Of a stretch of 64,000 nt of DNA, positions 9,911 to 63,094 are shown piece by piece (the first letter of the stretch is position 1; each line of letters starts with the position of its first letter). The notes below the pieces were generated by a model. That model saw only the letters and a list, made by a program, of their open reading frames with translations, did not search any database and was not told where the DNA came from. A program made the translations under genes and the position numbers. The DNA comes from Thiospirochaeta perfilievii (GTDB lineage: Bacteria; Spirochaetota; Spirochaetia; DSM-2461): the NCBI RefSeq assembly GCF_008329945.1, contig NZ_CP035807.1:248001-312000 (forward strand), read 5' to 3'.

Positions 9911-9932
9911 TAGTATCATTTGTAGATAAAAA

Positions 9933-10066: not shown

Positions 10067-10089
10067 TCTTCTAATACTTCAAACAACAC

Positions 10090-10368: not shown

Positions 10369-10396
10369 CTAAAGCTTTATTTATTGGAATTAGTTT

Positions 10397-13300
10397 TCAA
10401 TTTACATGTGATCTGACATTTTCTAATAAATATTTTATACATGTATCAAAATAACGATACTTTCCCCATAAGTGCATATTTCCAATTATAAATAACCTCT
10501 CCTTTGCTCTGCTAGCAGCTACATTCAATAGATTAGGTTTACTAGAAGCCCATGATTTTGCTCCTGGCTTTTCAGGATTACCGCCTAAAACAAGTATTAC
10601 AACATCAGCTTCTTTTCCTTGAACAGTATGAATTGTTCCAGCATTAATGCCATTAAACTTTTTTGCAATTTTTTTTAGATTCCTAACAACATCTCTAAAA
10701 GGTGATATTAAAAATATTTGATTACTAGCAATATCTTTTTCAAGTAAGTATTGAATTAAGTGTTCTGTCTGTTTTCCTTCTTCCTTAATCCAATGACCCT
10801 GTGCGTCTTTTGATTGAACATCAATCCATTGACTAGGGGTAATAATATTATTACTTTGAATATTATTTTTCCCTGAAACCATCATTCCATCATATGCTAT
10901 AGTATTACATATATTAAACATTGGATTATTACACCTTCTATGTACTTTTAAAGGAGAACCAATCCAAATTTTACTTTCATCAGTATCAATATATGTTCCC
11001 CAATTATTTACCCTATCTGCAAGCAACTGAACAGAACTTCTTGAAGGCATGAATATATCAGGGACATTAAACCGTTTTTTAATAGCGTTTTGCCAAGAAA
11101 ATGGTATATTAACTATAGGCTCTAACTGAAACGGGTCACCAACAATTACTGAATGTTGTGATCTCCATATTGCACCAGCAGCATTTTGAGGAGCAGATTG
11201 GCCAGCTTCATCAATTAGTAACCAACCCAAACTTTCTTTTTTTAATCTTGAAAATAATCTAGAATATGAAGCAAATGAACTAGATAATACAGGTACAATC
11301 AAAAACAGTGTTCTCCAACAATTAAGAACAGATACCTCTTTAACCTCTTTTGGAAGGCTACCTGTAAGAACATCGTTGAATAGTGCATTTAAATTAGTTT
11401 TTACACTTCGAGCATTAATCATAATAAAAGCTTTATGTAACTTTAGTGAAGCGATAAAAAGTTCAGCTCTGACTTTATTCCACTCATCATCAGCCCATGG
11501 TGAAGACTTTTCAGTATAATCAAGATTCTTCTTCCATCTATTAATATCAGGGATAGTATGTTCTCCCCACTTCTCTTTAGAATCTAAAATTATTTTTTCA
11601 AGATTTTTTAAATTATCTCTATTAGAATCTAACTCTTTTTTACTTTCTATGAATATAAGATTATAGTGTTCATAATTACGGTCAATATCATTTTGTAACT
11701 TTCTTAATTCAGAAAGTTTTAAAACCAATTCTTTATCTAATTCTATGAATTCTAAATCTTTAATATTCCAAATTTTGAACTTTCTACCAAATGTAAATAT
11801 TATCTCTAATAAACTAGGTTTAAACTCTTTATGTCTCAATCTATAATCATTATTAATTTCTATATTATCATTAATTGATCTTATCTCTTGTTGCAGTTTT
11901 TCTTTCTCTTTTTTCCAAATTTCTTTATTCTCAAAGTTTTTAGAATAAATCGCTTCATTCCGCAATATTACTTCTCTAATTTTATCTATATTAATAATAG
12001 CATTGAATACTTCTTGTCTCTTATTTCTTAATCTGTTTTCTAAACTGTGGAGTTTCTTAAATTTCAATAAGGACTTAGTCCATTCTTCTTTGCATAATAC
12101 TGGATCAGTTTCAAAATATTTTAGTTCTTCTAAAAAATGTTTTACGTTACTATCATGCCTACCAAAATAGAAATCTGATGCAAACTTACTCCTATTTGAT
12201 TTGTTCCCTAAACGTCCTGCGAACAGGCCCCATGATTCATTAGACATTACTTCATTACTTATTTCTTTAAAATAGTTAATATATTCCAGCCATGATTCAT
12301 CAATGGCATTAATACCTGGTATCTCTAAAGTAACATTTTCTACAGCTCCATTATTATTAGAAGCTATTACCATCTCATAACCACAAATTTCTTCTTGGAG
12401 TTTTTTTATCTTCCTTTTATAACTTCCTGATTCCCATTCTAAAGAAGAATCTTCTATAAAACCATTGAATGGATCATCTAGTGAAGCAATTTTAATAGCT
12501 CTTTCTACTACAATATTCGCCATCAAATCTCTCAATAAAGTAGTTTTACCAGTTCCAGGAGGGCCATTGACAGAAAATAAATCTACATTACTATTAAATA
12601 AAGAGTTTAATGCAAATTGCTGGCTCAATACCAACGGAAAATGACCTTTACTAGGCCATCTACCTTTAGGATATTTATTAGGTGCAAGCATATTGTAAAC
12701 AAACTTTAAATCCTTTCTACAATCTACTCTCTTATTAACGTTTGTATCATTATTGATTGTTAAATATTTAGATAATGGTACACCTAAGTCAGAATTAGTA
12801 GTAAAACTTGACAGTTTCTCCAGTTCATCTAAATAGAAACTATTTAAAAAATCAGATTCTGTATTAGAATCTTTAGATTCATAGATAGATACAGGCTTAA
12901 TCCTTATCTCAAGATTGTTTATTAATTTTTCATACCCTAATCTATCAATTATAGTATTAAACATTATTTTTAAGTTTCTATAATTTGGTTCTAATGAATT
13001 TCTATCATTTCTACCAAATTGGTTAATATAATCATTAAAAAACTGTTTTATATCTTGAAATGACTCATCAAAACCCTTTAACCAATTTCTAGAATTAATA
13101 TCATTTTCTAATGTATTATTTATTGCCCAAGAAGAAGAAGATAAAATAATCGAGTCTTCTATAGGTATACCCATTGCATCTAAGGTTATAAAAAATAAAC
13201 AAGATTCTGAGAGTTCTCTTTCATTAAAAATATTTTCATCATGACCAAATTTTTCTGAAAGTATATTTTCTATAATATTCTGCTTGTAGACACCTATGTA

Positions 13301-13501
13301 AAGATGATATTGACGAGACTGCTTATATTCTAACTTTGGGTAATGCTGACCTGAAGGATTATTCCAAATGCAAGAATAATCATCCTCAAATAAAAAAACA
13401 GGGTCTTCTTTACTGTGATTATTTACAAATGGAATAGATTGAGGAGAGAAATATTCGATTGCTTTCCAATAACCTAAAATACTTGATTGTTTTTTGAACA
13501 A
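10397..13501 (-). CDS. Large SF1 helicase (Upf1/Dna2-like)
   Basis: The 1034-aa protein has an uncharacterised N-terminal domain of about 280 residues. A split SF1B helicase core follows: Walker A NGPPGTGKTTLLRD near 310, a long charged coiled-coil-like insertion at about 360-690, motif II IDEAGQSAPQ, motif III VGDPFQLEPI, then TIHTVQGKEADVV and AASRAKERLF near the C-terminus. This layout (AAA_11/AAA_12) is seen in Dna2/NAM7-type helicases found in many defence islands. It is transcribed in the same direction as the type I restriction genes, 230 bp downstream of hsdR. No nuclease motif is visible. A DNA or RNA helicase in defence is likely but unproven. Confidence 0.75.
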   Translation of the reverse strand: MFKKQSSILGYWKAIEYFSPQSIPFVNNHSKEDPVFLFEDDYSCIWNNPSGQHYPKLEYKQSRQYHLYIGVYKQNIIENILSEKFGHDENIFNERELSESCLFFITLDAMGIPIEDSIILSSSSWAINNTLENDINSRNWLKGFDESFQDIKQFFNDYINQFGRNDRNSLEPNYRNLKIMFNTIIDRLGYEKLINNLEIRIKPVSIYESKDSNTESDFLNSFYLDELEKLSSFTTNSDLGVPLSKYLTINNDTNVNKRVDCRKDLKFVYNMLAPNKYPKGRWPSKGHFPLVLSQQFALNSLFNSNVDLFSVNGPPGTGKTTLLRDLMANIVVERAIKIASLDDPFNGFIEDSSLEWESGSYKRKIKKLQEEICGYEMVIASNNNGAVENVTLEIPGINAIDESWLEYINYFKEISNEVMSNESWGLFAGRLGNKSNRSKFASDFYFGRHDSNVKHFLEELKYFETDPVLCKEEWTKSLLKFKKLHSLENRLRNKRQEVFNAIINIDKIREVILRNEAIYSKNFENKEIWKKEKEKLQQEIRSINDNIEINNDYRLRHKEFKPSLLEIIFTFGRKFKIWNIKDLEFIELDKELVLKLSELRKLQNDIDRNYEHYNLIFIESKKELDSNRDNLKNLEKIILDSKEKWGEHTIPDINRWKKNLDYTEKSSPWADDEWNKVRAELFIASLKLHKAFIMINARSVKTNLNALFNDVLTGSLPKEVKEVSVLNCWRTLFLIVPVLSSSFASYSRLFSRLKKESLGWLLIDEAGQSAPQNAAGAIWRSQHSVIVGDPFQLEPIVNIPFSWQNAIKKRFNVPDIFMPSRSSVQLLADRVNNWGTYIDTDESKIWIGSPLKVHRRCNNPMFNICNTIAYDGMMVSGKNNIQSNNIITPSQWIDVQSKDAQGHWIKEEGKQTEHLIQYLLEKDIASNQIFLISPFRDVVRNLKKIAKKFNGINAGTIHTVQGKEADVVILVLGGNPEKPGAKSWASSKPNLLNVAASRAKERLFIIGNMHLWGKYRYFDTCIKYLLENVRSHVN

Positions 13502-13605
13502 ATAACTCTCTCCTATGTTTTAATTTTAAATATATTATCAGTCCATTTTATCTTTAACAACAACTTTTAAAAAGTATACCTCTTTTCAATATCAATCAAT
13601 TCTAT

Positions 13606-13731
13606 CTAACTCTGCACCCATTTGAGATCTTTTATATTTCCTAACGGTTGCCAGTATCCATTTGAAATAAATTCCTGAATCTTCACTTCATTACCTTTTG
13701 GAACCCAAAGACCGTAAAACTTTTCACTCAT
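13606..13731 (-). CDS. Short ORF coupled to hsdR (41 aa)
   Basis: Its ATG (13731) shares a base with the hsdR stop (TAATG), so it would be translated by coupling. The product is Trp/Gly-rich (EKFYGLWVPKG, NGYWQPLGNI, KWVQS) and ends at TAG 13606-13608. It may be a true small gene or the start of a longer protein lost by deletion, because the DNA after the stop has no continuing frame. I do not recognise it. Confidence 0.4.
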   Translation of the reverse strand: MSEKFYGLWVPKGNEVKIQEFISNGYWQPLGNIKDLKWVQS

Positions 13732-16700
13732 TATGATATACTTCCACCTACACCTTTAAATTTTTCTACAAAGAGTGATATTTTCTGGAAGACACTCTGT
13801 TTTTTTGTTAAATACCCCGGGTTCAGAGGACTCATCTTAGGTAGAATAGAAGTTAGCTCTGTACCGTTTTCACTTGCATATTCACGCTTTAAAGATGTTG
13901 TTATATATCTTTTGGCAGCTTCTACGTTTAAAGATTCCCCAGATATAAGCTCTTTAACTTCTCTTTTTTGTTCTTTTTGTGCAAACATAAAAAAGCTATC
14001 AATAATACTAGATTTATCCTGAACACTATCAAGGTCTGTCTGATTTATAAAATCTACTACAAGACTCTCTTTTGCCCTGTTTCCAATACTTGCACGGATA
14101 ACACGTCGTATTTCGTCTATAAGATCATCTTTGTCTTTTACATTTTTATTGCTTTCAAAGATTAATTCCAGGATATAATCAAGGTTAATCTCCTGGGATT
14201 TTAAAAGATCAACTTCAAAAACAACTTCATCCCAATCAATAGTAGATTCTACCTGCTCGGCTCCAGTTCTATCTCTTCTTATCCAGTCACGGATGTCATT
14301 ATATGTTGAACGGTAATCTTGTATAGTTCTCTCTGCTGGAACTGTAATTTGCTCCATGTTTTGAATGTCTTCTTCAGTTACATAATGAGTTGCCATAAAT
14401 TCTTCTATAGCTTCAGGATCTTTTTTATCTAAAGTCTGTAGAACTTTTAATGTTGTAAACTCATCGTAGTTTTGTAGTAAGTTCTCTACTTTTAAATATT
14501 CACCAAAGAGTTTAGCAAACTCCTTTTTATCCTTCTCTTTAACGATTTCTTCAGGATTAGGGAATCTAGTATTTAACTCACTTACAATATCAATATAACC
14601 TCGTTTGGCTTCACCAGTGGCTATATCTGTAAAACCTTCTAGGTACTCTTTATAGCTCTTCTCTAAAACCATATTTTTAGTATTGCTATCACCAAAAAGA
14701 GTAATTGCATCAATTGTTGACTGTTCAAGGTCTCTAAAGGTAACAATATTTCCAAAGGTTTTAGTAGAATCATATATTCTGTTAGTCCTGGAGAATGCTT
14801 GCATTAAACCATGGTATCTAAGGTTTTTATCTACAAAGAGTGTATTAAGGGTAGGAGCATCAAAACCTGTTAAGAACATCCCAACAACAATAAGTAGATC
14901 AATTTCTTTACTTTTTACCCTTTTTGCAAGATCACGGTAGTAGTTTTGGAACTCTTTACTATCTACTCCAAAGCTAGTTTTAAACATTTTATTGTAGTCA
15001 TCTATTGCTGAAACTAGAAACTCTTTTGCACTCTGATCCATAGCTGTAGGTTCAAATGTTTCATCGATTATATCACCAATAGCATTTTGTTCTTCATTTG
15101 CTGCAAAGGAGAAAATTGTTGCTATCTTAAGGGGTTTATCACTATCTTTCTGTAGGTTACTTATAGCCTCATAATAACATTTAGCAGCATCTACACTGCT
15201 AACAGCAAACATTGCATTAAAACCACCACCATTTCCATGTAAGCGGTGGGTCTTCTGTTTAAAGTTATTAAGAATGTAGGTGGATATCTCCTCTATTCTA
15301 GAAGGGTGTAGAAGAGCTTTTTTATTCTCTGCTGCACTTAATTTCTTCTCATCGGTTTCTGTTTCAAACTCTTTGAACTTTGGTCTAACATCATTATAGT
15401 CAACTTTGAATTTAAGAACCTTTTCATCTCTAATGGCATCTGTAATTACATAGGAGTGTAACTCTGAACCAAATACAGATGCTGTTGTCTCTGCACCTAA
15501 GGCATTCTCAGGGAATATTGGTGTACCAGTAAAACCGAATTGACAGAACTTCTTAAATTTCTTTGTAAGGTTCTTTTGAGCTTCTCCAAATTGAGATCTA
15601 TGACACTCATCAAAAATAAATACAACATTCTTATGATATACAGGTAGGTGACTATCACCCTTAATAAGGTTGTTTAACTTCTGAATAGTTGTGACAATAA
15701 TTTTATTATCATCCTTATCAATATTGCTTTTAAGCCCTTTTGTACTGTCTGATCCATTTACACTATCAGGGGAGAATCTTTGATACTCCTTCATGGTTTG
15801 AAAGTCTAAGTCTTTTCTATCTACAACAAAAAATACCTTATCTATAAAATCTAGTTCAGTTGTTAACCTTGCAGCTTTAAAACTTGTCAAAGTTTTTCCT
15901 GATCCAGTAGTATGCCAGATAAACCCACCACTATCAGGTGAAGATAACTTTTTAGTACCAAAGGAACTCTCAATTTTCCAAAGTATTCTTTCAGTAGCAG
16001 CTATTTGGTATGGTCTCATAATAAGTAGAGTGTCACTAATATCAAAAACAGAGTATGTTAATATAACTTTTAATAGAGTATTCTTTTGAAAGAAAGTCGC
16101 AGTAAAGTCTTTAATATCCTTAATTAGAGTATTATCTGACTTAGCCCAGTTCATACTGAAATCAAAACTGTTTTTATTCCTTTTTGTAGTATTAGCAAAG
16201 TACCTGGTATCTGTTCCATTAGATATTACAAACACCTGTAAGTATTTAAAAAGTGAGTTGTCACTATTAAAGCTTTCTTTACTATATCTATGAACTTGGT
16301 TAAAGGCTTCGCGGATTGCAACACCACGCTTTTTAAGTTCTACCTGTACCAATGGTAATCCATTAACAAGAATTGTTACATCATACCTATTGTGATGGGA
16401 ACCAATCTGCTCAAACTGATTTATAACCTGAACTTTATTCCTAGAAACATTCTTTTTATCCACTAAATGAATATTCTTTAACCTACCATCATCCATGGTA
16501 AAGTCATAAACATGATTATCATGAATTTTGCGTGTTTTATCTACAATATTATCACTGGGATTATCAAGATACTCCTCTACAAAACGTATCCATTCCCCAT
16601 CTAAAAATTTTATATCATTTAAATCTTCAAGTTGAACTCGAACATTGGCTAGCATAGTTTCTCTACATCTAAGATCAGGAACATATTCATACCCCTGATT

Positions 16701-16835
16701 CCTTAAATCCTGTATTAGTTCTCTTTCCAGGTCAGCTTCTGTCTGATATGACTCACATATATCCCACTCTTTAGTGTACTTATCTAATATTATGAAATTC
16801 TTTGTTTCTGTAATAGTTTTATAATTTGTCACCAC
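13731..16835 (-). CDS. hsdR: Type I restriction enzyme, R subunit
   Basis: The 1034-aa HsdR has an N-terminal PD-(D/E)XK endonuclease (YDVTILVNG, then VQVELKKRG, about 155-170). An SF2 translocase follows, with Walker [12 protein letters not shown] near 310, [10 protein letters not shown] and FTGTPIF, and motif VI-type QAFSRTNR. A helical C-terminal domain contacts the methylase. Such enzymes cut unmethylated DNA far from the recognition site after ATP-driven translocation. It is the last large gene of the hsdM-hsdS-yhcG-hsdR operon, seven bases after the gene before it. All key motifs are intact and the length is normal. Confidence 0.95.
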
Positions 16836-16842
16836 TAATTCC

Positions 16843-17850
16843 TTATTTTAAATATTTTCTCTCTTCAAGGCGTTGTCGTACTTCAATTAGAGCATTATGC
16901 AGTTTCTCTTCTAAGATCTCTTTTGGAGGAAGGTTTGTCCAATATTTAGCAACCATAATATTATCTTTTTGCATATTTAATAGTTCTACTTGTTCAGAGC
17001 CCGCATCAGCACATAGTATAAGACCAATTGGGGCTTCCTCTCCCTCTTGTCTATCGTACTTATTTAACCAATTTAGATAGAGTTCCATCTGTCCTTTATA
17101 GGCTGCTTTAAAATGACCAATTTTTAACTCTACAGCAACCAATCGTTTTAGTTTTCGATGATAGAAAAGAAGATCCAGATAGAAATCCTCTCCATCAATT
17201 ATCATTCGTTTTTGACGCTCAACAAATGTAAAACCGTTACCAAGTTCTAAAATAAAGAGTTCCAACTCTTTAATTAGTGCATTCTCCAGTTCGTTCTCCA
17301 AATAACCTTCCTGAAGTCCAAGGAAATCAAGAATATACGGGTCTTTAAAACTTCCTGAGAAACCACTATCTTTTGTTAGTTCATTCTGTGTATCTGCAAT
17401 TTCTGATCGCTCGAATGCTTTCCGTTCAATCTGATTTCTTAGTTCACGTTTACTCCAGTGGGACTCACTGGCTGCCTGGGCATAAAACATCTGTGCTTCT
17501 GGAGATTTTAGAGGAATTAATGTGAGAAAGTGGGACCAGCTTAATTGTCGTGCCAATGGAACGACAATTTCAACATCCGGGAAGACTTCTGCAAACTGCA
17601 TCATTCTTCGTAAATTCCTTACTTCAAAACTTTTTCCATGAATGGTAACAAGCTCCTTTGATAATTGTGAAACAACTTGTTTACCATACTCAGCCCTCTC
17701 CCCTTTAAGTATATCCTGATTAATCCGTTTACCTACATGCCAATAGGTAATAGATATAGCACTATTAACAGAAGCAATAACATCAGCCTTACCCCTGTCT
17801 ATTAGAGTTCTTATATCAACTAAAAGATCACTAAAGAACTTATTCTCCAT
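16843..17850 (-). CDS. YhcG-family (DUF1016) PD-(D/E)XK nuclease
   Basis: The 335-aa protein has a DUF1016 N-terminal domain (about 1-160; [28 protein letters not shown]) and a C-terminal PD-(D/E)XK-like nuclease ([20 protein letters not shown] with KIGHF). It is inserted between hsdS and hsdR, a frequent location for this family, but its role there is not settled. The start is taken as the ATG at 17850, which overlaps the hsdS stop (TGATG) and has GGTGGAG eight bases upstream. A TTG at 17853 is the other option. The sequence is intact. Confidence 0.85.
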
Positions 17851-51558: not shown

Positions 51559-54500
51559 TTATAACCATAATAATTTTCGATCCAATACATTTAAGTTATT
51601 TGACTCTAATACATCTAGATAGAAGTCTAACTGTTTATTATATTTCTCTATCTTTTCTGGGGTTGGTTTTCCTGTTTTAAAGTCGATGATTACCCAGCCA
51701 TTTCCAGTTTCATCATAGTATATAAGGTCTATAAAACCTCTTTTATTATCCTGGTTAAACTCTAATTCAAATCTATGTTCAGCACCTGAATTCAGCTTTG
51801 AATATACAAAACTCTCATAAAATTTATTCATACTTGTTATTATTTTATCTCTATCCTCTTGTTTAAAAATAGCTTCTCTTTTGAAAATAGAGTCTTTATT
51901 CTCATTAAATTTTTTCCAGTACTTCTCTATAATTTTATGGGTTTTCTCACCTAATAATGCAGCACTAATTTCACTGGTTTGGGTACTGTCAGAAGTTGCA
52001 GATATTATGTCTCTAGATGTAAAAGATAAAGTCTTTAGATTATAAGCTATGTACTCTGGAAGAACTCGATTAACTAAATTTCTCTCATCTGAAGATAGAT
52101 GAATACATACATTTGGGTCTTGTTCGTATAGATCCATTAAATAAATATTCAGTCCCTCTGTTATCATTTCTAAATAACTATTCTTTATAGCTGCTATAGA
52201 TTCATCTTTTTTAATTTTTAAAGAACCAGAAATAACTACATCATGTTGGGCCCTTGTTAATGCAACGTATAAGAGACGTTTCTTCTCTGCTAAATGCTTT
52301 AAAACGTCTACTTGTTTCAAGATTCTATGACTAAGGGGATTGTAATCTCCTATTTTAAAGCCTACTAACTCTCTGTTTTCATTATTTATTGCGTAATTAT
52401 TGTATTTTAGGCTCTCAGAAGTAACCTGAGTTGTTAAGCCCTTTTCACTATTGCCTAATAAAACTAGAGGATAAGCAAGCCCCTTAGTTGAGTGAATTGT
52501 ACAAATCTCAATAGATTTAGCGCCATCAGAAATATAAAACTCTTCATCTTCCTTTGAGTTAGAAAAATAGATTGCAGACTCAATGCTATTAAGAAAGTCA
52601 GAAAAACTACCGGTTTCTGACTCTTCAAAGTCCATACAGATATTCAGAAACTTGTTAATATTAGAAACCCTTTGACTAATATCATCAAAATGGGCATAAA
52701 CACTATAAAGATTAGAGTCCTCCACAATATATTTAACCAAAGTAGATAGCGTACTAGTTTTATAGAGATTTATATACTCCTCTAGTACAGGGGGTATAGT
52801 TTTAGATTCTATAAACTCTTTAATCTCTCTATCTTTAAATCTCAAAATATTTGACCGTAGAGCTCCAACAATATAATATCGATCTTTTTTAGATAGATAT
52901 TCTTTTTTCTTTGAGTATATATGTATTGCTTTTAAAACATTAAAAATGTCGTTAATCTCTTTAGTCTGATAAAAATCCTCAGTCGCTGAAACCTTAGAAT
53001 CTATTCCCAATTTTTTTAAACTCTTTTTAAGCTCTACCATTTTACTACTACTATCAAAAAGGATAGCAATAGCTTGTTTGTTCTCATTAATAAGATTCGA
53101 GATATGAGTGTAATCACTGTTTCTGTAATGAACTATGTCATAAATAAAATATGAGATCCTATCAATTTCTGACTCTTCTGAATCTGATGAGATTAAGAAT
53201 TTAAAACTTCCTCTGTTTTCTCTTTCACTTTTTCCAACATGTAAGTCCTGGGCTGTCGCTTCATAATCTTCTGCCCCCTGAAGGATTTCTCTGAAAATTT
53301 TATTTACAGAGTTTAAAACAACACCGTCACTTCTATAGTTATTACTCATATCCTCTATAGATTGAAAAAGACTCTTATCCTGGACAGCTTTATTGAAAAC
53401 TTCTAGTTGGGCTCCTTGAAAGGAGTAAATTGATTGTTTGCTATCCCCTACTACAAATAGATTAGTATCCCTATTCATTGCTCTTTTTATAATTGAAAAC
53501 TGTACCTCGTTTGTATCCTGAAACTCATCAACCATAATGTATTTATAATCAGTAGAACACTTATCGATTATCTGGGAGGTTTTTGTAATAATAATATCAA
53601 AATCTATTTTACCAAGCTCAATAAGTTTTAAATCATAATCATTTTTTATCTCTGCCAAAATTGATTTAATTAGTTTAATTACATCAAAAAATAGATCCTC
53701 TTTAACTTGATCAATTTCACTATAATATTGTAGGTATTTATTATCTAATTTATTTTTAATATCATTCAAAATAGGATATTTTTTTTCACCTAATGTCGGA
53801 GCTTTAGCAATATCTACATCACTCCATTTTTTTGCATCAAATCTTTTAAAGTTATCTATATATTGATTAAACCAATTCTCTCTAATCGTATCTTCTTTTA
53901 TATCATCATATACGTCGTATAATTCAGGTAACGGAAAAAGTTTTTCTATAATTTTCTTAAAATCATTTATTGAATTACCACTATCAAAAGATTTAAAACT
54001 ATTTCTGAATCCTAGATCAAAAACATATTTTTTTATCAAATTGGAGAAAAAATATAAGGGTAAATAATTTGTAATATTTTCTATCTCGCCAGTGTTAGAT
54101 TCAAAGACATTAAATATGATAGAATCTAACTCTTTATTTTTTATTTCATCATCAATAATATCAAGTTTAGAATCAATTCTTGCTATATCTGCATTAGATT
54201 TTATAATATCTAAACAAAAAGAATGAATTGTAGATATCTTTGCTTTACTAATATCGATTAGAGCCTTATTTAAAATATTTGAAACAAATTCTTTCTCATT
54301 TCTATCAATATTATCATTGGCTTCTTTTATGGAATTATAATCACCATCTTCAGAATCTAATTCATTGAAAGTTATTATCTTCTCTATTAGTCCAAAGATC
54401 CTGGATTTCATCTCTAGAGCTGCAGCTTCAGTATAGGTGATAGTTACAATTTGACTAACAAAGGCTGCCTTTGTCTTTATAAAGTAACTACTTTGAGTGG

Positions 54501-54636
54501 AGTAATCTTCTCTAAAATAATCAAAACCTAATAATGCATTTATATACCTTCTACTAAGTGTATATGTTTTTCCACTTCCTGCACCTGCACTAATAGCAAA
54601 GCTTTTTTGTATACTAAACTTATTTATACTACTCAT
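51559..54636 (-). CDS. addA: AddA/RecB-like helicase-nuclease
   Basis: The 1025-aa UvrD-type helicase has Walker A SAGAGSGKTYTLSRRY (about 15-30), motif II MVDEFQDTNE, motif III GDSKQSIYSFQGA, motif V STKGLAYPLVLL and motif VI VALTRAQHD. The C-terminal RecB-family nuclease has HRFELEF, RGFIDLIYYD and VIIDFKTGKP. With the AddB-like protein it should process double-strand ends for recombination and degrade linear foreign DNA. It overlaps the addB-like gene by 8 bp. It is shorter than Bacillus AddA (about 1230 aa). Confidence 0.8.
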   Translation of the reverse strand: MSSINKFSIQKSFAISAGAGSGKTYTLSRRYINALLGFDYFREDYSTQSSYFIKTKAAFVSQIVTITYTEAAALEMKSRIFGLIEKIITFNELDSEDGDYNSIKEANDNIDRNEKEFVSNILNKALIDISKAKISTIHSFCLDIIKSNADIARIDSKLDIIDDEIKNKELDSIIFNVFESNTGEIENITNYLPLYFFSNLIKKYVFDLGFRNSFKSFDSGNSINDFKKIIEKLFPLPELYDVYDDIKEDTIRENWFNQYIDNFKRFDAKKWSDVDIAKAPTLGEKKYPILNDIKNKLDNKYLQYYSEIDQVKEDLFFDVIKLIKSILAEIKNDYDLKLIELGKIDFDIIITKTSQIIDKCSTDYKYIMVDEFQDTNEVQFSIIKRAMNRDTNLFVVGDSKQSIYSFQGAQLEVFNKAVQDKSLFQSIEDMSNNYRSDGVVLNSVNKIFREILQGAEDYEATAQDLHVGKSERENRGSFKFLISSDSEESEIDRISYFIYDIVHYRNSDYTHISNLINENKQAIAILFDSSSKMVELKKSLKKLGIDSKVSATEDFYQTKEINDIFNVLKAIHIYSKKKEYLSKKDRYYIVGALRSNILRFKDREIKEFIESKTIPPVLEEYINLYKTSTLSTLVKYIVEDSNLYSVYAHFDDISQRVSNINKFLNICMDFEESETGSFSDFLNSIESAIYFSNSKEDEEFYISDGAKSIEICTIHSTKGLAYPLVLLGNSEKGLTTQVTSESLKYNNYAINNENRELVGFKIGDYNPLSHRILKQVDVLKHLAEKKRLLYVALTRAQHDVVISGSLKIKKDESIAAIKNSYLEMITEGLNIYLMDLYEQDPNVCIHLSSDERNLVNRVLPEYIAYNLKTLSFTSRDIISATSDSTQTSEISAALLGEKTHKIIEKYWKKFNENKDSIFKREAIFKQEDRDKIITSMNKFYESFVYSKLNSGAEHRFELEFNQDNKRGFIDLIYYDETGNGWVIIDFKTGKPTPEKIEKYNKQLDFYLDVLESNNLNVLDRKLLWL

Positions 54637-56968
54637 CAGATACCTCTAATTCTTTATCTAAAATATTTTGGTGGCATATATTTTTAATATCACACCATTT
54701 ACACTGTTTCTCATTAGAGTTATTAAATACGAAGTTACCACTATTTATAGAATCCCTCGTTTTAAATATTAGATCTTTGATATTCGATATATATGTTTCA
54801 TCAAATAAAACTGATGATTTTACTTCATCTGTAGACATTTGGGCAAAGTGATAATATGGATTATTCCCTTTAAAACTAAGAAGTGAAGAGAAGAAGTTTT
54901 TATCTTCTGATTCAATCTGTGTGGCATACAAAAGGTATAATCCTAGTTGAATATCTTTAAGCTCTTTAATCTCTTGGGTTTTATCAGTATCAATTTTTGA
55001 GTTACATTTTTTAGATTTGTAATCTAATATATTTACTTGCTCTTCCAAAGAGTCATATCTATCAATAAAACCTTTTATAAAATGGTTGTTATCATCAGCA
55101 TCTGGTGGATTATATGGTTTTAGTTCATGATCTAACTTGAATTCTTTCTCAAATTCACTAGACCGGAAATAGTTTAATTCGACTGCATTTTCTATATAAT
55201 AATCTACAAACTTTGCCAATAAACCAGGTTCTCTGTCATCATTTAGACCAGCCTGTAAATTAGAAAGAAACAGTTTATGATAAATATTCTCTTCTCCACG
55301 ATTTTCTGCTACTTTTTGGATATCATACGCTTCAACAGATTTATTTTGCATTAAATCATATAGAAATCCTTGATCTATTGTGTCATTTTCTAAATTCTTT
55401 ACATCTTTACTAAATAGTTCAAAACAGAGGTGCATTAAACTTCCCTCTTCTAAAACATCAAACCCATCTTTCTCAGCTCTAGGAGCTTCTACTCTTATTT
55501 TATTTAAGTATAAGTATTGTAAGGGACAAGTAGTATATCTATTTATTTGAGAGGCAGAAAGATGCCTTGCATCAAATCCTTTGACATTTAAACCATCATA
55601 TTCTGTGATTTTATCTATCGAGATACTTTGTAGATATTCTGTATAGCTTTCTTGTTTTATAGCTTTACCATCTAATGCCAAATCTGATTTACTTTTTATT
55701 CCAGAAACATCAATTTTGTTACTATTACTATTTTCTTTATCTATAACAATTGAAGGTGCTAACTCTTTTTTTCCACTGTAACTTGCTGTTACAAGATATA
55801 AATTGTCACATATACTCTTAAGATACATATATAGCTCTTTAGAACTTTGATAATAATCGTTTAAATAGAAAAGATTGATATCCTGGTCATATGTATATAG
55901 GAAATTATCTGAAGGTTGTGGTGGAAAACTGTTAATATCAGCACCTATAAAAATAATATGTTTATACATCTTACTTAGCCCAACAAGTTGATTTGCTTCT
56001 GTAATCTCTATTCCTACTTTACTATCATGAATCTGAGTCTCTTTTAATATCGCCTCTCTCTTCTGTTCAGTAAACTTAAGACCTAATGTTTTAAATATAT
56101 TTTCATAATCCCCTATTCTATTTTTAGCTATATTATATGCTGTTCTAACCTCAGTACTATTTTTATTACAAAAGTTGTTTAATGGTGTTCCTATAGATGA
56201 AAAACCCTTCATGTTAAAATCTGGCATATAAATTTTGAAAAGTTTTGAATACTTCTTAATATCAGTTGTTACATATATAATTTCATTATCTGAAGCACCT
56301 TCTTCCATTAACTTCCTTGCTATTTTAATTGATGTTTTAACTTCATCAGTAGAATCAAAGACCTTTACTTCTGGAAAAATAATCTGAGGATTATTTGGGT
56401 TTTCCTCTATCTTCTCAATTCGATTAAAATCTCTATTTAGTTTTTGAAGAATTGACTCTTGTTTTTTTGATTTAATGAAACTTAATTTATTAAGAGTGAA
56501 TGAATCAATAAATAGATCATCATATTTATTAAAATTTTCCTTGGAGTAATGTGTTTCAAAATAATCTTCAATATCAGAGATATCACCAAGCTTATGCCTA
56601 TTTTTATATTCTACATACTCCGTATAAATTTTTTCTATAGCTATTAGCTTTTCACCTGATATTATTGATTTAAATTGAACTTCATTTCTACTACATTTTG
56701 TAAGAAAATCAAATATAGTGTCTATAGAGTTACTATCATCATTTAAATAATTGAAATATATAATATCGTTATCTTTTATTATTTTATGGATGATGCTGGA
56801 ACTTGTAACTTTATCGATAATAATTTTATCAGATTCATTATCGTAAAACTCTTTTATTAGGTTATCTAAGGTTATGACTTTATCAAAAACTCCAGTTAGT
56901 TCACTTTTTTGTAATTCTCTTTTTCTCTGATTACTATATGTTATATATAAACTGTTTTTTAAATTCAT
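54629..56968 (-). CDS. addB: AddB-like Fe-S PD-(D/E)XK nuclease subunit
   Basis: The 779-aa protein has a degenerate helicase-like N-terminal half without a visible Walker A. A C-terminal RecB-type nuclease carries LSASQINRYTTCPLQYLYLN, GSLMHLCFELF, KGFIDRYDS and VNILDYKSKK. A final CKWCDIKNICH, together with the earlier TCP cysteine, gives the four-Cys pattern of the AddB 4Fe-4S cluster. It forms a complex with the AddA-like protein. It is shorter than Bacillus AddB and diverged in the first half. Confidence 0.75.
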   Translation of the reverse strand: MNLKNSLYITYSNQRKRELQKSELTGVFDKVITLDNLIKEFYDNESDKIIIDKVTSSSIIHKIIKDNDIIYFNYLNDDSNSIDTIFDFLTKCSRNEVQFKSIISGEKLIAIEKIYTEYVEYKNRHKLGDISDIEDYFETHYSKENFNKYDDLFIDSFTLNKLSFIKSKKQESILQKLNRDFNRIEKIEENPNNPQIIFPEVKVFDSTDEVKTSIKIARKLMEEGASDNEIIYVTTDIKKYSKLFKIYMPDFNMKGFSSIGTPLNNFCNKNSTEVRTAYNIAKNRIGDYENIFKTLGLKFTEQKREAILKETQIHDSKVGIEITEANQLVGLSKMYKHIIFIGADINSFPPQPSDNFLYTYDQDINLFYLNDYYQSSKELYMYLKSICDNLYLVTASYSGKKELAPSIVIDKENSNSNKIDVSGIKSKSDLALDGKAIKQESYTEYLQSISIDKITEYDGLNVKGFDARHLSASQINRYTTCPLQYLYLNKIRVEAPRAEKDGFDVLEEGSLMHLCFELFSKDVKNLENDTIDQGFLYDLMQNKSVEAYDIQKVAENRGEENIYHKLFLSNLQAGLNDDREPGLLAKFVDYYIENAVELNYFRSSEFEKEFKLDHELKPYNPPDADDNNHFIKGFIDRYDSLEEQVNILDYKSKKCNSKIDTDKTQEIKELKDIQLGLYLLYATQIESEDKNFFSSLLSFKGNNPYYHFAQMSTDEVKSSVLFDETYISNIKDLIFKTRDSINSGNFVFNNSNEKQCKWCDIKNICHQNILDKELEVSDE

Positions 56969-56982
56969 TTAATTCCCTATAG

Positions 56983-57099
56983 TTAAAAGTCTATTTTTAT
57001 AAAAAGATCGAAAAGTTTTGCAATGCCTAGAGGAAGGGTTTTAATTCTCCCAGCCTTATCATGATATTTTATCATAAAGGCATTAGAAAGAAGTTCCAT
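56983..57099 (-). CDS. Short ORF between SGNH hydrolase and addB (38 aa)
   Basis: ATG 57099 is preceded by GAAGGAG at good spacing and the frame ends at TAA 56983-56985, just before addB. The product (MELLSNAFMIKYHDKAGRIK, then TLPLGIAKLFDLFIKIDF) has a possible amphipathic C-terminal helix. Good ribosome site and position in a tight operon suggest a real small protein. No family is recognised. It fills the 158-bp gap that would otherwise separate the genes. Confidence 0.5.
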   Translation of the reverse strand: MELLSNAFMIKYHDKAGRIKTLPLGIAKLFDLFIKIDF

Positions 57100-57126
57100 A
57101 GTTACTCCTTCTTCAAATATATTATC

Positions 57127-57651
57127 TTATTTGAAATTCCCTGTATATAATTTTAATTCTTTTACATATTTATCTTTACTGATTATACCAGCTATAGCCT
57201 GAGCTATTTTATGTCCCCCATACTCAGATGGTTCTATTGGGGATACTGTGGAAAAATCTTTCTCTTCAGTGGTTTTAAATATATCTTCTACAATAAGAAC
57301 ATCTGAATCATCTTCTGGATTGTTACATTTTATAATTTCCCTCAGTTGTAATGCATCATTTCCACCAATACTAATAAAAACATGTTCAGAGTACTCACTA
57401 GTAGTTTCCTTTGTACTATTTGTTGGGATTCCTCTAAGTCCGTCCTCGATGTCATCTCTATAAGGGTCTAATAAACTATTAAAATCAATTTGGTTTTCTA
57501 AATCTTTGCTTTTAGCTCCATCTTTTGCTATTAGATTTACAACATCTTCTTCGTTTAAATATTTAGCTAATAGATCCTTAACACTCCAGTCCTCAATAAC
57601 ATATCTTCCATTATCAAATATGGAATCTCCTAATAATATTACTTCTTTCAT
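57127..57651 (-). CDS. SGNH/GDSL-family hydrolase
   Basis: The 174-aa protein has block I GDSIFDNGRYV with the catalytic Ser, block III SIGGNDALQL, and a C-terminal EPSEYGGHKIAQAI in place of the usual DxxHP. There is no signal peptide, so a cytoplasmic esterase/lipase-like activity is likely. Its start codon overlaps the stop of the gene before it (TAATG). The location in an operon with AddAB-like genes is unusual for this family. Confidence 0.7.
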   Translation of the reverse strand: MKEVILLGDSIFDNGRYVIEDWSVKDLLAKYLNEEDVVNLIAKDGAKSKDLENQIDFNSLLDPYRDDIEDGLRGIPTNSTKETTSEYSEHVFISIGGNDALQLREIIKCNNPEDDSDVLIVEDIFKTTEEKDFSTVSPIEPSEYGGHKIAQAIAGIISKDKYVKELKLYTGNFK

Positions 57652-58349
57652 TATTTCTTTTCCTTTTCATATGATTCAATTTTCTTATTAAATCTCTCTT
57701 CCATCTCATCAGGAATTATCCCTCGAATAGGCAGTAATTTGTACTGATGAGGATGAGAATGCTCCCAATATTCTTCATCTGGCCATATAACACAGTAAAC
57801 ATTTTCGATACCATAAGTATATGCTTCTTCCATATAACTTTTAAATGATTCTTCAAGTATTTCTTCTGGTAAACATCGGTGTTTACTTCTTAAATAATTT
57901 TCATGTTTTAAAAATTGTTCTTTCGACCACGGTGTTCCGGTTACTATAACAGCATACAGAGTATTACAGTAAATAAATTCGACAATATCCCCTGCACTGT
58001 ATTTAGTTGGTAGATCAATCCCTCTAAAGGGTGTTTTGCTAGGAATCAAACATCCATCATGATAATTACCTAAAGAGTTATATATTCTTGTAGTATCACT
58101 ACCACGATAAATAACATCTAAAGCTATCTCAGTTATTTCAAAATGAGATATATAGGTCTGTTCTTCTTCATCATCTTCTTCTATCTCATAATAATCTTTA
58201 TAATCAGAAATATTTCTAAAATTATTAATTATATCCTCAGCTTTTTTTAATGATGTATAATAACCTACTCTTTCTTCCCTAAGCTCCATAGGATAAACTA
58301 ATTCACCTTCATATGTGTAAAATTTTAATAAAAATATAGCTTGTTCCAT
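57651..58349 (-). CDS. Hypothetical protein, first gene of the AddAB-like operon
   Basis: The 232-aa protein is acidic, rich in Tyr and Trp, with no signal peptide or membrane segment. Visible features are EEDDEEEQTY (about 67-76), KYSAGDIVEFIYCNTLYAVI (resembles an SH3-like or DUF small beta domain), YCVIWPDEEYWEHSHPHQYK, and a C-terminal charged helix. I do not recognise the family. It overlaps the SGNH gene, so the four or five genes here are one operon, facing a WYL regulator. Confidence 0.6.
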   Translation of the reverse strand: MEQAIFLLKFYTYEGELVYPMELREERVGYYTSLKKAEDIINNFRNISDYKDYYEIEEDDEEEQTYISHFEITEIALDVIYRGSDTTRIYNSLGNYHDGCLIPSKTPFRGIDLPTKYSAGDIVEFIYCNTLYAVIVTGTPWSKEQFLKHENYLRSKHRCLPEEILEESFKSYMEEAYTYGIENVYCVIWPDEEYWEHSHPHQYKLLPIRGIIPDEMEERFNKKIESYEKEKK

Positions 58350-58391
58350 AATGTACTCCTGCTTTTAATGAGTTAAGTCTATAAGCTTCGA

Positions 58392-58408
58392 ATGACAAAA
58401 AGTGTCAT
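58392..58408. promoter_or_regulatory. Candidate WYL operator ATGACA-N5-TGTCAT
   Basis: ATGACA (58392-58397) and TGTCAT (58403-58408) form a perfect 6-bp dyad with spacer AAAAG in the 124-bp region between the divergent starts (58349 and 58474). Its location suits control of both the AddAB-like operon and the regulator gene itself. The dyad itself is plain in the sequence; its role is inferred. Confidence 0.5.
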
Positions 58409-58473
58409 AGTAAATAAAATTGCAAAAAAATTATAAATTAGTTACACTTTCTAAAAAGTTCCATGGAGTTATC

Positions 58474-59457
58474 TTGAAAAAAATAAGAGATTTTTTTGAA
58501 ACAATTACAATTCTTTCTAGACCACAAGGGGTTACTTATAGCGAACTAGCCGAATTACTTGGTTGTAGTCACAGAACAGCAGTAAGAGAGATTGAATATA
58601 TTTATACTATTTTTGACCTTGAAGAGTCATTAAGTAATACTGGAAGAGAAAAGAGATTTTATCTATCTGAAGAAAATGTTAAAAATTTTACAACAGTAAA
58701 AATGCCAAACTTAAACCTTTCTGCAGCAGAAACAACAGCACTAATACTACTATGGGGTAAATCTAAATGGCTTCAAGATTCTACCTATCAAGAACATTTA
58801 CGAAGAGCATTTAATAAAATATTTACAATTGATGATTATAAATTAGATCAATTTAAAAATCTATCTAACATCATGTTACTAGGTGAGTCTCATAATAAAA
58901 ACTATGCAAATAAAGAATTAATTATTGATGATCTGATTCATGCCATGGTACAAAAAAGAAGATGTGATATAACATATCACTCCTACCATAACGATACTAG
59001 AAAAAGTTACTGTATTAATCCCCTACATCTTTTTCAAAGGGATGGTGGTTTATATTTCTTCACAACAATTAACGATTACACAGATATAAGAACCTTAGCC
59101 GTAGAGCGGATAATTAATCTTAGCATTGGGGAGTCTCATTTTGAAACACCTACCGATTTTGAACCTCAAGATTTTCTTGATACAACTTTTAATTTATCTT
59201 TTGGAAAACAGGAAGAATTTAAGATTCTTTTTGATAAAAGTCAGACTCTTTATATATCAGAAAGGAATTGGGCAAAGGAACAAAAAATCGAAATATTAGA
59301 TAATGGAAATATTATTCTTTGGTTACGAACCTCTGGCCGGCATGATATAAAAAGGTGGGTACTAAGTTATGGTGCAGATGCGGAACTCTTAGAGCCAGAG
59401 TCCCTAAGAAAAGAAATAGCCGATGAACTAATCACAATGAGTAAAAGATACAATTAA
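58474..59457 (+). CDS. HTH-WYL transcriptional regulator
   Basis: This DeoR-like winged HTH (about 327 aa; TYSELAELLGCSHRTAVREI) is followed by a linker and a WYL domain (RCDITYHSYHNDTRKSYCIN, PLHLFQRDGGLYFF), and a C-terminal WCX extension (LWLRTSGRHDIKRWVLSYGA). The start is placed at TTG 58474 because GGAG (58465-58468) lies 5 bp before it. An upstream TTG at 58420 has no such signal. WYL proteins often regulate defence or DNA-damage genes. The intact copy allows decay of its duplicate at 43.9 kb to be read. Confidence 0.8.
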   Translation: MKKIRDFFETITILSRPQGVTYSELAELLGCSHRTAVREIEYIYTIFDLEESLSNTGREKRFYLSEENVKNFTTVKMPNLNLSAAETTALILLWGKSKWLQDSTYQEHLRRAFNKIFTIDDYKLDQFKNLSNIMLLGESHNKNYANKELIIDDLIHAMVQKRRCDITYHSYHNDTRKSYCINPLHLFQRDGGLYFFTTINDYTDIRTLAVERIINLSIGESHFETPTDFEPQDFLDTTFNLSFGKQEEFKILFDKSQTLYISERNWAKEQKIEILDNGNIILWLRTSGRHDIKRWVLSYGADAELLEPESLRKEIADELITMSKRYN

Positions 59458-59927: not shown

Positions 59928-60188
59928 ATGCCACAAATAATACCAATTAAAGATCTTCGGAATACAACAGAAATATCTCGTAAATGTCATGAAACCAATG
60001 AACCAATATTTGTAACAAAAAATGGATATGGAGATATGGTTCTAATGAGTATAGCAACATATGAAAGAGATATAGCTAGAACTGAATTATTAAATAAAAT
60101 TGCTGTAGGTGAAGAAGATCTTAGAAGCGGAAATGTAATAGAAGCTGAATCAGCATTTAAAGATCTTAGGAATGAGTTTTTTGACTAA
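59928..60188 (+). CDS. Phd/YefM-type antitoxin
   Basis: The 86-aa protein has the Phd/YefM N-terminal DNA-binding fold (IIPIKDLRNTTEISRKCHET, FVTKNGYGDMVLMS) and an acidic helical C-terminus for toxin binding (EEDLRSGNVIEAESAFKDLR). It overlaps the toxin gene by 17 bp. A GGAGATG ribosome site precedes the ATG. The copy at 44776 is identical except for its tail. Confidence 0.85.
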   Translation: MPQIIPIKDLRNTTEISRKCHETNEPIFVTKNGYGDMVLMSIATYERDIARTELLNKIAVGEEDLRSGNVIEAESAFKDLRNEFFD

Positions 60189-60498
60189 CCTATATAAGAT
60201 AAACCTAACCCAGAAAGCATATGGAGATCTTAAAGATATTTATAGATATATTAAAGAAGAGCTACATAATAAAAACTCTGCTTTAAAAGTTATAGATGAA
60301 ATTGAGAATCGAATATTGCTATTAAAGGATTATCCTAAAACAGGAGTGTTTGTTAAAGATGAAGTTCTAGTTAAAAGAGGATATAGAAAGCTTCTTGTTA
60401 ATAACTATATAGCGCTTTATCTAATAGACGAAGACAGAAAGGTTGTTAATATTATTAGAGTTGTGTATGGAAAAAGAGACTATCTAGAATTAGTGTAG
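60172..60498 (+). CDS. ParE/RelE-type toxin
   Basis: The 108-aa protein has the RelE/ParE fold: YKINLTQKAYGDLKDIYRYI at the N-terminus, LKDYPKTGVFVKDE in the middle, and YRKLLVNNYIALYLIDEDRK with IIRVVYGKRDY at the C-terminus. RelE members cut mRNA on ribosomes; ParE members inhibit gyrase. I cannot separate the two here. It is coupled to the Phd-type antitoxin and looks intact. Confidence 0.85.
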   Translation: MSFLTNLYKINLTQKAYGDLKDIYRYIKEELHNKNSALKVIDEIENRILLLKDYPKTGVFVKDEVLVKRGYRKLLVNNYIALYLIDEDRKVVNIIRVVYGKRDYLELV

Positions 60499-60596: not shown

Positions 60597-60848
60597 CCTG
60601 AGATCCTTTTTCACAGGTACTGAACCTCAGATATAATAGGTTTTAATGTTGATTTTAGAACAAGGTCTACTTTAGTATCAAAATCTTCAGAAAGTTCCTG
60701 CTCAAGAGTGATAAGATCAAATAAATCTAATTGTGATGGTCTTGATAAATCAATAAGTATATCAACATCACTATTTATATTTTGTTCTCCTCTTACATAA
60801 GATCCAAAGATACCAATTTCACTGATACCTGAATTTAATAATCTTTTT
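60597..60848 (-). pseudogene. mntA relic (middle and C-terminal part)
   Basis: The minus strand closely matches mntA codons from SGISEIGIFGSYV to the end, plus the first codons of hepT (MKKD-type start at 60606). A small deletion removes part of EDSILSE near 60625. The N-terminal Lys-rich part is replaced by the IstB fragment at 60845, so the two relics are joined at a Lys/Arg-coding A-rich run. Confidence 0.65.
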
Positions 60849-61263
60849 TTCGTCTTAAAGAGTCACCTTTTAGCTCAATTCTATAAGATCCATATACAAT
60901 CCTATCCATAATTGCATCAGCTATTGTGGAATCACCAATTAACCCATGCCATGACTTTACAGGTAGTTGAGATAAGAATATTGTTGATTTTAAACCATGT
61001 CTGTCTTCAAGAATATCTAACAGAGCTAGACGATTATCATTGCTAAATGTACTTAGCCCAAAGTCCTCTAATATTAATACATCTGCTTTAACTATTTTCA
61101 TTAACATTTTGTGGTAATGACCTTCACGTTTTGCCTCTTTTAGATCAGCAAATAATCGACTCGTTAATTTGTACATGACTTTATAGCCAAGATCACAAGC
61201 TTGGCGGCCCAACGCACTACCTATAAAGCTTTTTCCTTTATGTAAAACTTTACATAAAGGAAA
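60835..61263 (-). pseudogene. istB: IS21-family IstB ATPase, truncated
   Basis: The translation shows GKSFIGSALGRQACDLGYKV, then KADVLILEDFGLSTFS (Walker B), DRHGLKSTIFLSQLPVKSWH and ADAIMDRIVYGSYRIELKG. These are the IstB transposition helper motifs. The N-terminal domain before the P-loop is missing and the frame starts inside a palindrome at 61230-61265. No IstA gene remains. It is a relic of an IS21-like insertion. Confidence 0.75.
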
Positions 61264-61265
61264 AA
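61230..61265. repeat. Near-perfect palindrome at a P-loop/P-loop junction
   Basis: TTTTTCCTTTATGTAAA (61230-61246) and TTTACATAAAGGAAAAA (61249-61265) are perfect inverted arms of 17 bp with a 2-bp centre. Reading outwards, each arm enters the lysine codons of a different ATPase P-loop: GKS of IstB on the minus strand and GKT of the ExeA/TniB-like relic on the plus strand. Confidence 0.85.
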
Positions 61266-61600
61266 CCTGTATTTTTAGAATGGCTGTAGACTCTTTAAAT
61301 CCTGGAATGTTTAAGTCATTCTACATATGCCATACTTCTGTTGGAATTCAAGAATTTTATACACACTTATGTAATATTTTTGGTTTACAACCCGCAGGAA
61401 GAAGAGCTGCGATGTTTAAAAGTATCCATGAGTATATCTTAAATATGCATAGGACTACGAATATTCACCCTATTCTAGTTATAGATGAAGCGGATAAACT
61501 AAGTACAGAGATATTACAGGAGTTAAGACTAATTGCAAATTTCAATTATGACTCTGTAAACATTGTGGTAAGGATAGTATGTGTAGCAAAACCAAAGGTA
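61249..61600 (+). pseudogene. ExeA/TniB-like transposition ATPase, truncated
   Basis: The plus-strand frame reads GKTCIFRMAVDSLNPGMFKS, then FYICHTSVGIQEFYTHLCNI, GRRAAMFKSIHEYILNMH, HPILVIDEADKLSTEILQEL and LIANFNYDSVN. These match AAA ATPases that accompany transposases (ExeA/TniB group). The N-terminus before the P-loop and the end after VCVAKPK are lost, the latter replaced by another mntA relic. No transposase gene remains next to it. Confidence 0.7.
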
Positions 61601-61715
61601 CTGAACCTCAGATAATATAGATTCATTTATAATAGGTTTTAATGTTGATTTTAGAACAAGGTCTACTTTAGTATCAAGATCTTCAGAAAGTTCCTGCTCA
61701 AGAGTGATCATTAGT
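61598..61715 (-). pseudogene. mntA relic (C-terminal 38 codons)
   Basis: The minus strand reads ITLEQELSEDLDTKVDLVLK, then STLKPIINESILSEVQYL, the end of MntA. It begins abruptly at TGATCACTCTTGAGC and lacks all catalytic residues. Together with the relic at 60597-60848 it brackets the two transposon ATPase fragments. Confidence 0.65.
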
Positions 61716-61805: not shown

Positions 61806-62780
61806 TTATGTAATGATACTTATAGCTTTTAATCTATCAATAATTAAGTTTTTTGCTTTAAGTTTCATTTCTTTAGGCATAAAGCTATGATTTATTATCT
61901 CTATTATTCCATTTTTATTATTAATGAAGTTTTCTAATATTTTTTTAATAACTGGCTTACGTATCCCAACAAGTTCACCTAATAAATAAAAATCTGAACC
62001 AGTATAAAATCCATATTTATTAAACGAATCAGAATATATACCATCATCTTCCGCTTTTGTTAAATCGAGGGCAAGCACTCCAATTGTAGAAGGATTAGGA
62101 AATGCATGAACTAAAAGCTGATCATAATTAGGTGTCAATCCATCATAAAAAGCTGTTTTATTGTCTTTATATTTTATTAGGCTAATATTTTTTAAATGCA
62201 TATCATCATTTCCAATAAGATAAGCAAATACTATTCTATTAAATAACTCTTTAACAACTGAAAGCTTACCTCCACACATTTTACGAACAAGAATTAAGGC
62301 TTCTTCGTAGCTTTTATTATATTTATTTTGACTTTTTATATTAAATGCTTGGGCTAAATCTTCTTGATGTATTTTTTCACCATTATTTCTATCATATCTT
62401 TTTGTTATATAGACTTCTTCTTCATCCAAAAATTGTATATTTGCAGAAAGAGCAGTATCTATTCCTAAAAATCTACTTAAAGACATTGCACATTGTTCAT
62501 TTTCTGCAGCATATGGAAAAGATTCTGGAGATGGCTTTAAAATATATTCACCTCCAATAGTAACAATTTCAAATTCATTATCGCTATTTAAAATTAATGA
62601 TAGTTTTTGCTGTACCCCAGATATAGACATCCCATTAGTAAACTTTATACCTTTAGTAAAAAATTCTTTTCTTGAAAAATTCAATTTATATATAGGTCTA
62701 AATTTTCCAAAAAAATCTTTTTCAATTTTTCTAATCTTTGTCTCTTTATCAATATTTTCTAGAGTTAATCTACAGATCAT
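61806..62780 (-). CDS. hipT: HipT kinase toxin (HipBST type)
   Basis: The 324-aa HipA-like kinase lacks the N-subdomain 1. The Gly-rich loop region reads TNGMSISGVQQKLSL with the two serines S52 and S54 (SIS). The equivalent SIS serines are the autophosphorylated residues of E. coli HipT. ATP-binding YILKPSPESFPY, catalytic LIGNDDMHLKNISLI and metal-binding LTPNYDQL are intact. E. coli HipT phosphorylates TrpS. It overlaps the hipS-like gene by 4 bp. Confidence 0.85.
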   Translation of the reverse strand: MICRLTLENIDKETKIRKIEKDFFGKFRPIYKLNFSRKEFFTKGIKFTNGMSISGVQQKLSLILNSDNEFEIVTIGGEYILKPSPESFPYAAENEQCAMSLSRFLGIDTALSANIQFLDEEEVYITKRYDRNNGEKIHQEDLAQAFNIKSQNKYNKSYEEALILVRKMCGGKLSVVKELFNRIVFAYLIGNDDMHLKNISLIKYKDNKTAFYDGLTPNYDQLLVHAFPNPSTIGVLALDLTKAEDDGIYSDSFNKYGFYTGSDFYLLGELVGIRKPVIKKILENFINNKNGIIEIINHSFMPKEMKLKAKNLIIDRLKAISIIT

Positions 62781-63094
62781 ACTTTATCCTTTATAATTGT
62801 AATTGCTCCAATTAAATCTTTTCCATTATTTAATAAAATTCCAAATTTATCTTCTTTATCGATGTGTTGCATATTACTTTGTAAATCCAATAACCATCCT
62901 TCACTCACTAGATTTTCAAAAAAAGGAAATAGATCAATGCTGTAATATTTTGATTTTGAAAAAGGAAAATTATATCCTATTGGAGCTCCAAATATAATGT
63001 AATCGCTATCATAAGTAAAACAGAATCCTTCTTTTGTATTTATTAGAGTACCAGCAAGGTAATTATTAAAATATACATACCCTATTCGATCCAT
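62777..63094 (-). CDS. hipS: HipS antitoxin (HipA N-subdomain-1-like)
   Basis: The 105-aa protein corresponds to the N-subdomain 1 that in HipA is fused to the kinase: YVYFNNYLAGTL, FPFFENLVSEGWLLDLQ, KEDKFGILLNNGKDLIGAI. In HipBST the separate HipS is the antitoxin for HipT. Gene order B-S-T and overlaps of 13 bp and 4 bp fit the described system. Confidence 0.85.
   Translation of the reverse strand: MDRIGYVYFNNYLAGTLINTKEGFCFTYDSDYIIFGAPIGYNFPFSKSKYYSIDLFPFFENLVSEGWLLDLQSNMQHIDKEDKFGILLNNGKDLIGAITIIKDKV

Follow-up and report, generated by a model that had tools for sequence, protein, structure and literature searches.

An AddAB-like helicase-nuclease of Thiospirochaeta perfilievii, encoded opposite a WYL regulator, as the probable core of a mobile defence module

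AddAB and RecBCD are regarded as enzymes of routine DNA repair that are also an obstacle to phages, and RecC resembles AddB in fold. We analyzed an AddAB-like gene pair in a 64,000-nucleotide (nt) stretch of the Thiospirochaeta perfilievii genome (assembly GCF_008329945.1, contig NZ_CP035807.1, positions 248,001 to 312,000; hereafter the window), where it lies in a minus-strand operon that faces the gene of an HTH (helix-turn-helix)-WYL-WCX regulator (Table 1). The Bacillus subtilis AddAB/RexAB enzyme (PDB 4cei) has the same two subunits, with one UvrD-type motor, two PD-(D/E)XK nucleases and an iron-sulfur (Fe-S) AddB, but the window pair is not the housekeeping enzyme of its genome and appears to belong to a mobile lineage in which defence cargo is nested. 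RecBCD is likewise an end-directed helicase-nuclease, but it has three subunits and one nuclease and is vertically conserved, and the RecB of this genome falls outside the clade of the window pair. On the regulatory side, the R-box of BrxR is an inverted repeat with 11-bp arms and a 5-bp spacer (PMC9122601), and PafBC and DriD are WYL factors that bind or sense single-stranded DNA (ssDNA) (PMC11804915). On balance, we consider it probable that the pair is a horizontally acquired, non-housekeeping AddAB that supplies the DNA-degrading activity at the core of a mobile defence module, present here without cargo and under a divergent WYL regulator.

The genome has a complete RecC-RecB-RecD operon (C1:1816-1832 kb). 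RecC was present in 23 of 26 genomes of the genus and family, the three lacking it being drafts of 71-87% completeness, whereas the window AddB occurred in 1 of the same 26; the pair is therefore accessory, and a housekeeping AddAB was rejected. Across the Spirochaetota (393 genomes sampled) there was one other member of the AddAB family (G152). FlaA (PF04620) was found in the window's genome and 21 of the 26 genus and family genomes, and in 0 of 14 control genomes, which marks the host as a spirochaete. The first-pass annotation of this DNA, made from its letters, had suspected that AddAB is not housekeeping here, and the separate RecBCD bears it out; the pair is in addition patchily spread and apparently acquired horizontally. 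It had also named a sole AddAB, present in all relatives without the accessory genes, as the pattern that would overturn its proposal; what we found was RecBCD alongside, and AddB in a single genome of the 26.

AddA carries all superfamily 1 (SF1, UvrD-type) helicase motifs and the residues of a C-terminal PD-(D/E)XK RecB-type nuclease, and its catalytic columns show no variation across an alignment of 14 sequences. AddB combines an inactive-helicase-like N-terminus with a C-terminal PD-(D/E)XK nuclease that has four Fe-S cysteines and supplies an intact second nuclease site; C481, C756, C759, C765, D636, D649 and K651 were invariant in 17 aligned sequences. When AddB was modelled with AlphaFold from an alignment of 14 sequences (predicted local distance difference test, pLDDT, 77), the top PDB matches were AddB of B. 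subtilis AddAB (Foldseek 1.6e-15). The model aligned to B. subtilis AddB with Z 18.8 over 683 residues and a root-mean-square deviation of 17.7, a value that probably stems from a differing domain arrangement. The SF1A motifs and RecB-type nuclease of AddA, with the Fe-S nuclease and modelled fold of AddB, place the pair in the AddAB superfamily. Because AddA scores far under the curated equivalog cut-offs (173 of 708 bits for TIGR02785, 154 of 861 for TIGR02784 and 127 of 650 for NF010485), we read it as an AddAB-type enzyme and not as a canonical AddA orthologue. Judged from sequence, the pair consists of two intact subunits that bear two nuclease sites between them, and represents a lineage distinct from RecBCD and from canonical AddAB. 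The UvrD-type motor of AddA also matched GajB models of Gabija (4e-30); no GajA-type (OLD-TOPRIM) match was obtained for the five window proteins scanned with PADLOC, and Gabija was rejected, as the operon has no GajA and its architecture is that of AddAB.

Scanning genomes with one AddB sequence gave no matches; a scan with a three-sequence alignment recovered approximately 20 further close loci among 84,980 species genomes, nearly all in Campylobacterota, whose contigs carry relatives of the window pair at 41-53% identity. In PLSDB only two plasmids matched, pACIB of Aliarcobacter cibarius (42%) and a Sulfurospirillum plasmid (27%). Full-length AddA proteins of the family scored 1,170-1,640 bits against at most ~300 for canonical AddA, the family scores being inflated by a profile built from most of the family members. 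A maximum-likelihood tree joined 14 AddA sequences, including that of the window, in one clade (support 100/100), within which the window AddA was nested in an 11-row subset (100/100) otherwise almost wholly from Campylobacterota. Outside the 14-row clade stood canonical Campylobacterota AddA, the genome's own RecB and a Zac-linked AddA; branches were long, leaving deep placements unsure. The lineage also appears to be extra in its other hosts, because PDDEXK_1 searches of 16 host genomes found, in most, a separate canonical-size AddB (~780-800 aa) beside the family pair and, in several, a separate canonical-size AddA (~905-917 aa) as well. Transfer of this lineage between phyla would be the simplest reading. 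A phage origin was rejected, as AddB had no relatives in phage records and the AddB, SGNH-like and 232-aa proteins of the operon had no match in viral contigs. The histidine kinase gene that flanks the locus had no close copy in the family with which an empty site could be compared.

Of 17 family loci, 11 had other genes nested between addB and addA, and none of 17 canonical pairs did (P = 9e-5), the count being our own and the related loci not fully independent. This cargo comprised two GmrSD genes (L017, L033), GmrSD with HipA (L022), McrB-like and McrC genes with RhuM (L021, L030), McrBC with Schlafen/AlbA (L037), two McrBC-like sets with Fic (L025), PLD/SNF2 genes of PDC-M27ABC (L023), YhcG with RhuM (L027), a GIY-YIG gene (L113) and a 300-aa protein with no Pfam match (L028:3306-4208). 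Most cargo junctions measured -35 to +15 nt, with frequent overlaps of 4-14 nt. The addB-addA junction of this extra lineage appears to accommodate restriction and toxin genes of many kinds, and would be a clear genomic marker for discovering new defence genes. A DEDDh exonuclease gene with an ExoX-like C-terminus (247 to ~300 aa) adjoins or overlaps the 5' side of addB in L022, L023, L025, L030, L033 and L035, and is likely a third component of these AddAB loci; it precedes addB in many Campylobacterota members and is missing from the window operon. Cluster F5, the protein family to which the annotated Sir2 gene of L017 belongs, also recurs near the AddAB-like pair, in L017, L022, L024, L026, L027, L030 and L033.

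Taken together, the tree, the plasmid matches and the cargo suggest an AddAB lineage that moves between phyla and onto plasmids, usually with restriction or defence genes inside addB-addA. The first-pass annotation had proposed a regulated defence module; its AddAB core belongs to a defence-associated lineage, and its accessory-gene part was not supported. In such a module AddAB would load on free double-stranded DNA ends, those of linear phage DNA or those cut by resident restriction enzymes, and would then degrade the invader DNA from these ends, with partner cargo, where present, making or recognizing the targets. The WYL protein might hold the operon low and lift this control when a nucleic-acid signal reports infection or damage, in the manner of WYL factors that bind ssDNA. 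The repeated company of GmrSD, McrBC, RhuM, Schlafen, YhcG or PLD/SNF2 suggests an end-degrading machine turned portable defence core, which could couple target-specific cutters to a dedicated shredder or replace RecBCD under phage inhibition. More tentatively, these loci could form an undescribed mobile defence class, in which a divergent AddAB chassis, often with a DEDDh exonuclease, holds interchangeable restriction or toxin modules in the addB-addA junction, the window being a WYL-controlled version with accessories of its own upstream. The parts are known and the combination looks new; we found no literature on this AddAB lineage or its nested cargo in open-access PubMed Central articles, which is weak evidence of novelty.

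To characterize the regulator we compared it with Pfam, where WYL and WCX scored above cut-off and HTH_11 below, and with solved structures, where its nearest relatives were 9pfq (a WYL protein) and DriD (E 4.5e-5). Its gene more likely starts at TTG 58474, preceded by GGAG, than at TTG 58420, because the latter falls within the -10-like box of the best plus-strand promoter-like site. The left half of the intergenic dyad forms the -35 of that same site, and the dyad is a plausible candidate operator for the promoter of the WYL gene itself. The dyad, which the first-pass annotation had correctly described as perfect, is by itself not above chance: the window holds 46 perfect 6-N5-6 repeats, and the background is 0.8 repeats with spacers of 0-12 per 100 bp. 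The exact dyad sequence is single copy in the genome, and a genome-wide regulon was rejected on this ground. The arrangement resembles that of the BrxR/CapW WYL repressors in having an HTH-WYL-type regulator adjoining a putative defence operon and an inverted repeat with a 5-bp spacer, but the dyad arms are only 6 bp, and the resemblance is one of arrangement. HTH-WYL regulators also occur in five Campylobacterota loci of the AddAB family, and L113 has a WYL-only protein.

Several points weigh against a defence core at this locus. The window pair holds no restriction gene, addB and addA overlapping by 8 nt, and its proposed role in defence rests on its relatives; 6 of the 17 family pairs lack cargo in the same way, and where cargo is present it could merely use the locus as a landing site. 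Most AddAB relatives come from metagenome bins, some of them doubtfully named, and no PADLOC model names the window AddAB as a defence component, the matches being to generic UvrD/GajB-type models.

An alternative which we regard as rather unlikely is that the extra AddAB serves backup or damage-induced double-strand-break repair, with the WYL protein responding to damage-derived ssDNA, a ligand that DriD and PafBC also sense (PMC11804915), and inducing the pair. The WYL-WCX architecture, the presence of DriD among the nearest solved relatives and the two intact nuclease sites are consistent with this, but the similarity to DriD is weak at the E value given above, the WYL protein appears to have Ala in place of one of the two arginines conserved in PafB (our reading of the sequence), and repair alone leaves unexplained a patchy lineage set amid restriction cargo. 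Improbable, in our judgement, is that AddAB serves the mobile element itself, in plasmid or island maintenance or in recombination, with the defence genes as co-passengers. Two relatives are indeed plasmid-borne, and toxin-antitoxin, HipA and transposon remnants adjoin the window operon; the cargo, however, is tightly packed inside the operons, often with overlaps of 4-14 nt, and the searches of phage records (AddB) and viral contigs that returned no relative also argue against it.

We then return to the probable defence core and the genes upstream of it. All open reading frames (ORFs) called by the first-pass annotation (AddA, AddB, 38-aa, SGNH-type, 232-aa acidic and divergent WYL) are present where it placed them. 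In minus-strand order the operon runs 232-aa ORF, GDSL/SGNH-like ORF, 38-aa ORF, addB and addA, with junctions of -1, 27, 14 and -8 nt; a Shine-Dalgarno-like site stands at the ATG of every gene except addA, which overlaps addB. No structured RNA reached the gathering threshold at the locus. Searches of Pfam, NCBIfam, PADLOC and the PDB gave no match for the 232-aa protein, and its single-sequence model was unusable (pLDDT 45). Two relatives were found among 392 other spirochaete genomes: that in G176 is on a contig too short for context, and that in G280 stands alone, near ATPase and HNH gene pairs and not beside AddAB. The G280 locus (L107, G280:C185) holds two such pairs, at 901-3660 and 4560-7455, which are Septu-like by our reading.

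The hydrolase seen by the first-pass annotation is indeed a GDSL/SGNH-type ORF that retains blocks I (GDS Ser), III (GxND) and V, but it lacks ~60 core residues present in all three aligned rhizobial relatives, and so does not have a complete alpha/beta core; its block V reads PIEPS, with Glu in place of the classical His throughout the subfamily. Hydrolase activity is therefore doubtful. Its relatives occur in unrelated contexts on rhizobial plasmids. The 38-aa ORF occupies the place of the relatives' DEDDh exonuclease gene and shows weak similarity to exonuclease residues 153-175 (shuffle P ~0.4-0.9%, for a match found post hoc), and may be a relic of that gene. Neither the SGNH-like nor the 232-aa gene had a clustering partner among the genes of 22 AddAB-like loci (L017-L038), and a second copy of the five-gene order, the conservation of which had been proposed as a check, was seen nowhere else. 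The two genes would thus be co-transcribed passengers or locus-specific accessories. That they are instead the sensor and effector of a dedicated five-gene defence system, much as the first-pass annotation had imagined them as sensors or toxins, is very improbable: the tight operon geometry and divergent regulator would suit it, but the one readable 232-aa relative is away from AddAB, the SGNH protein is truncated with unlinked relatives, and neither accessory clusters with any gene of the 22 loci.

Table 1. Features of the AddAB-like operon and its divergent regulator, in window positions.
Feature	Position	Strand	Evidence or remark
AddA-like subunit, 1025 aa	51559-54636	-	Pfam UvrD-helicase 3e-41, UvrD_C 1e-27, PDDEXK_1 6e-10
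AddB-like subunit, 779 aa	54629-56968	-	Pfam PDDEXK_1 2.5e-23; AddB fold (model)
Putative 38-aa ORF	56983-57099	-	Strong Shine-Dalgarno, AGAAGGAGTAACT-ATG
GDSL/SGNH-like ORF, 174 aa	57127-57651	-	Lipase_GDSL 2.7e-5
232-aa acidic ORF	57651-58349	-	Calculated pI 4.75
Perfect dyad ATGACA-AAAAG-TGTCAT, candidate operator	58392-58408		Divergent intergenic region
Promoter-like site of WYL gene, ATGACA-17-TAAAAT	58392-58420	+	10/12 consensus
HTH-WYL-WCX regulator gene, divergent from operon	58474-59457	+	WCX 9e-16, WYL 1e-12

A search for a second AddAB or RecBCD, which the first-pass annotation had called for, revealed, besides the RecBCD operon, an AddAB of a different lineage elsewhere in the same genome. 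At L006 (G000:C1:156000-174000), positions 5575-17359, an AddB/AddA-like pair lies 137 bp downstream of ZacA, ZacB and ZacC (PADLOC 4.5e-76, 1.7e-116 and 3.3e-227), all in one run and in the same orientation. The AddA tree rejected this pair as a member of the window's family. None of the PADLOC Zac models matched it, and it may belong to the Zac system. Zac and PDC-M27ABC are PLD and SNF2-helicase systems that adjoin AddAB-like pairs (L006, L023 and L038), and their placement suggests that the company of PLD/SNF2 defence systems recurs in two lineages of such pairs. The window operon, in contrast, has no PLD or SNF2 gene, and both Zac and PDC-M27 are absent from the window.

Just past the WYL gene lies a Phd/YefM antitoxin and ParE toxin pair (59928-60498); on the Sulfurospirillum plasmid a Phd/YefM-RelE/ParE pair directly follows addA. 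Further along the window, at 60612-61711, the remains of an IS21-type insertion consist of an IstB-like fragment between the two copies of an 86-nt direct repeat (97% identical, 996 nt apart). Beyond it, at 61806-63094, a HipA_C protein and a separate 105-aa upstream ORF possibly represent a split HipA-type toxin.

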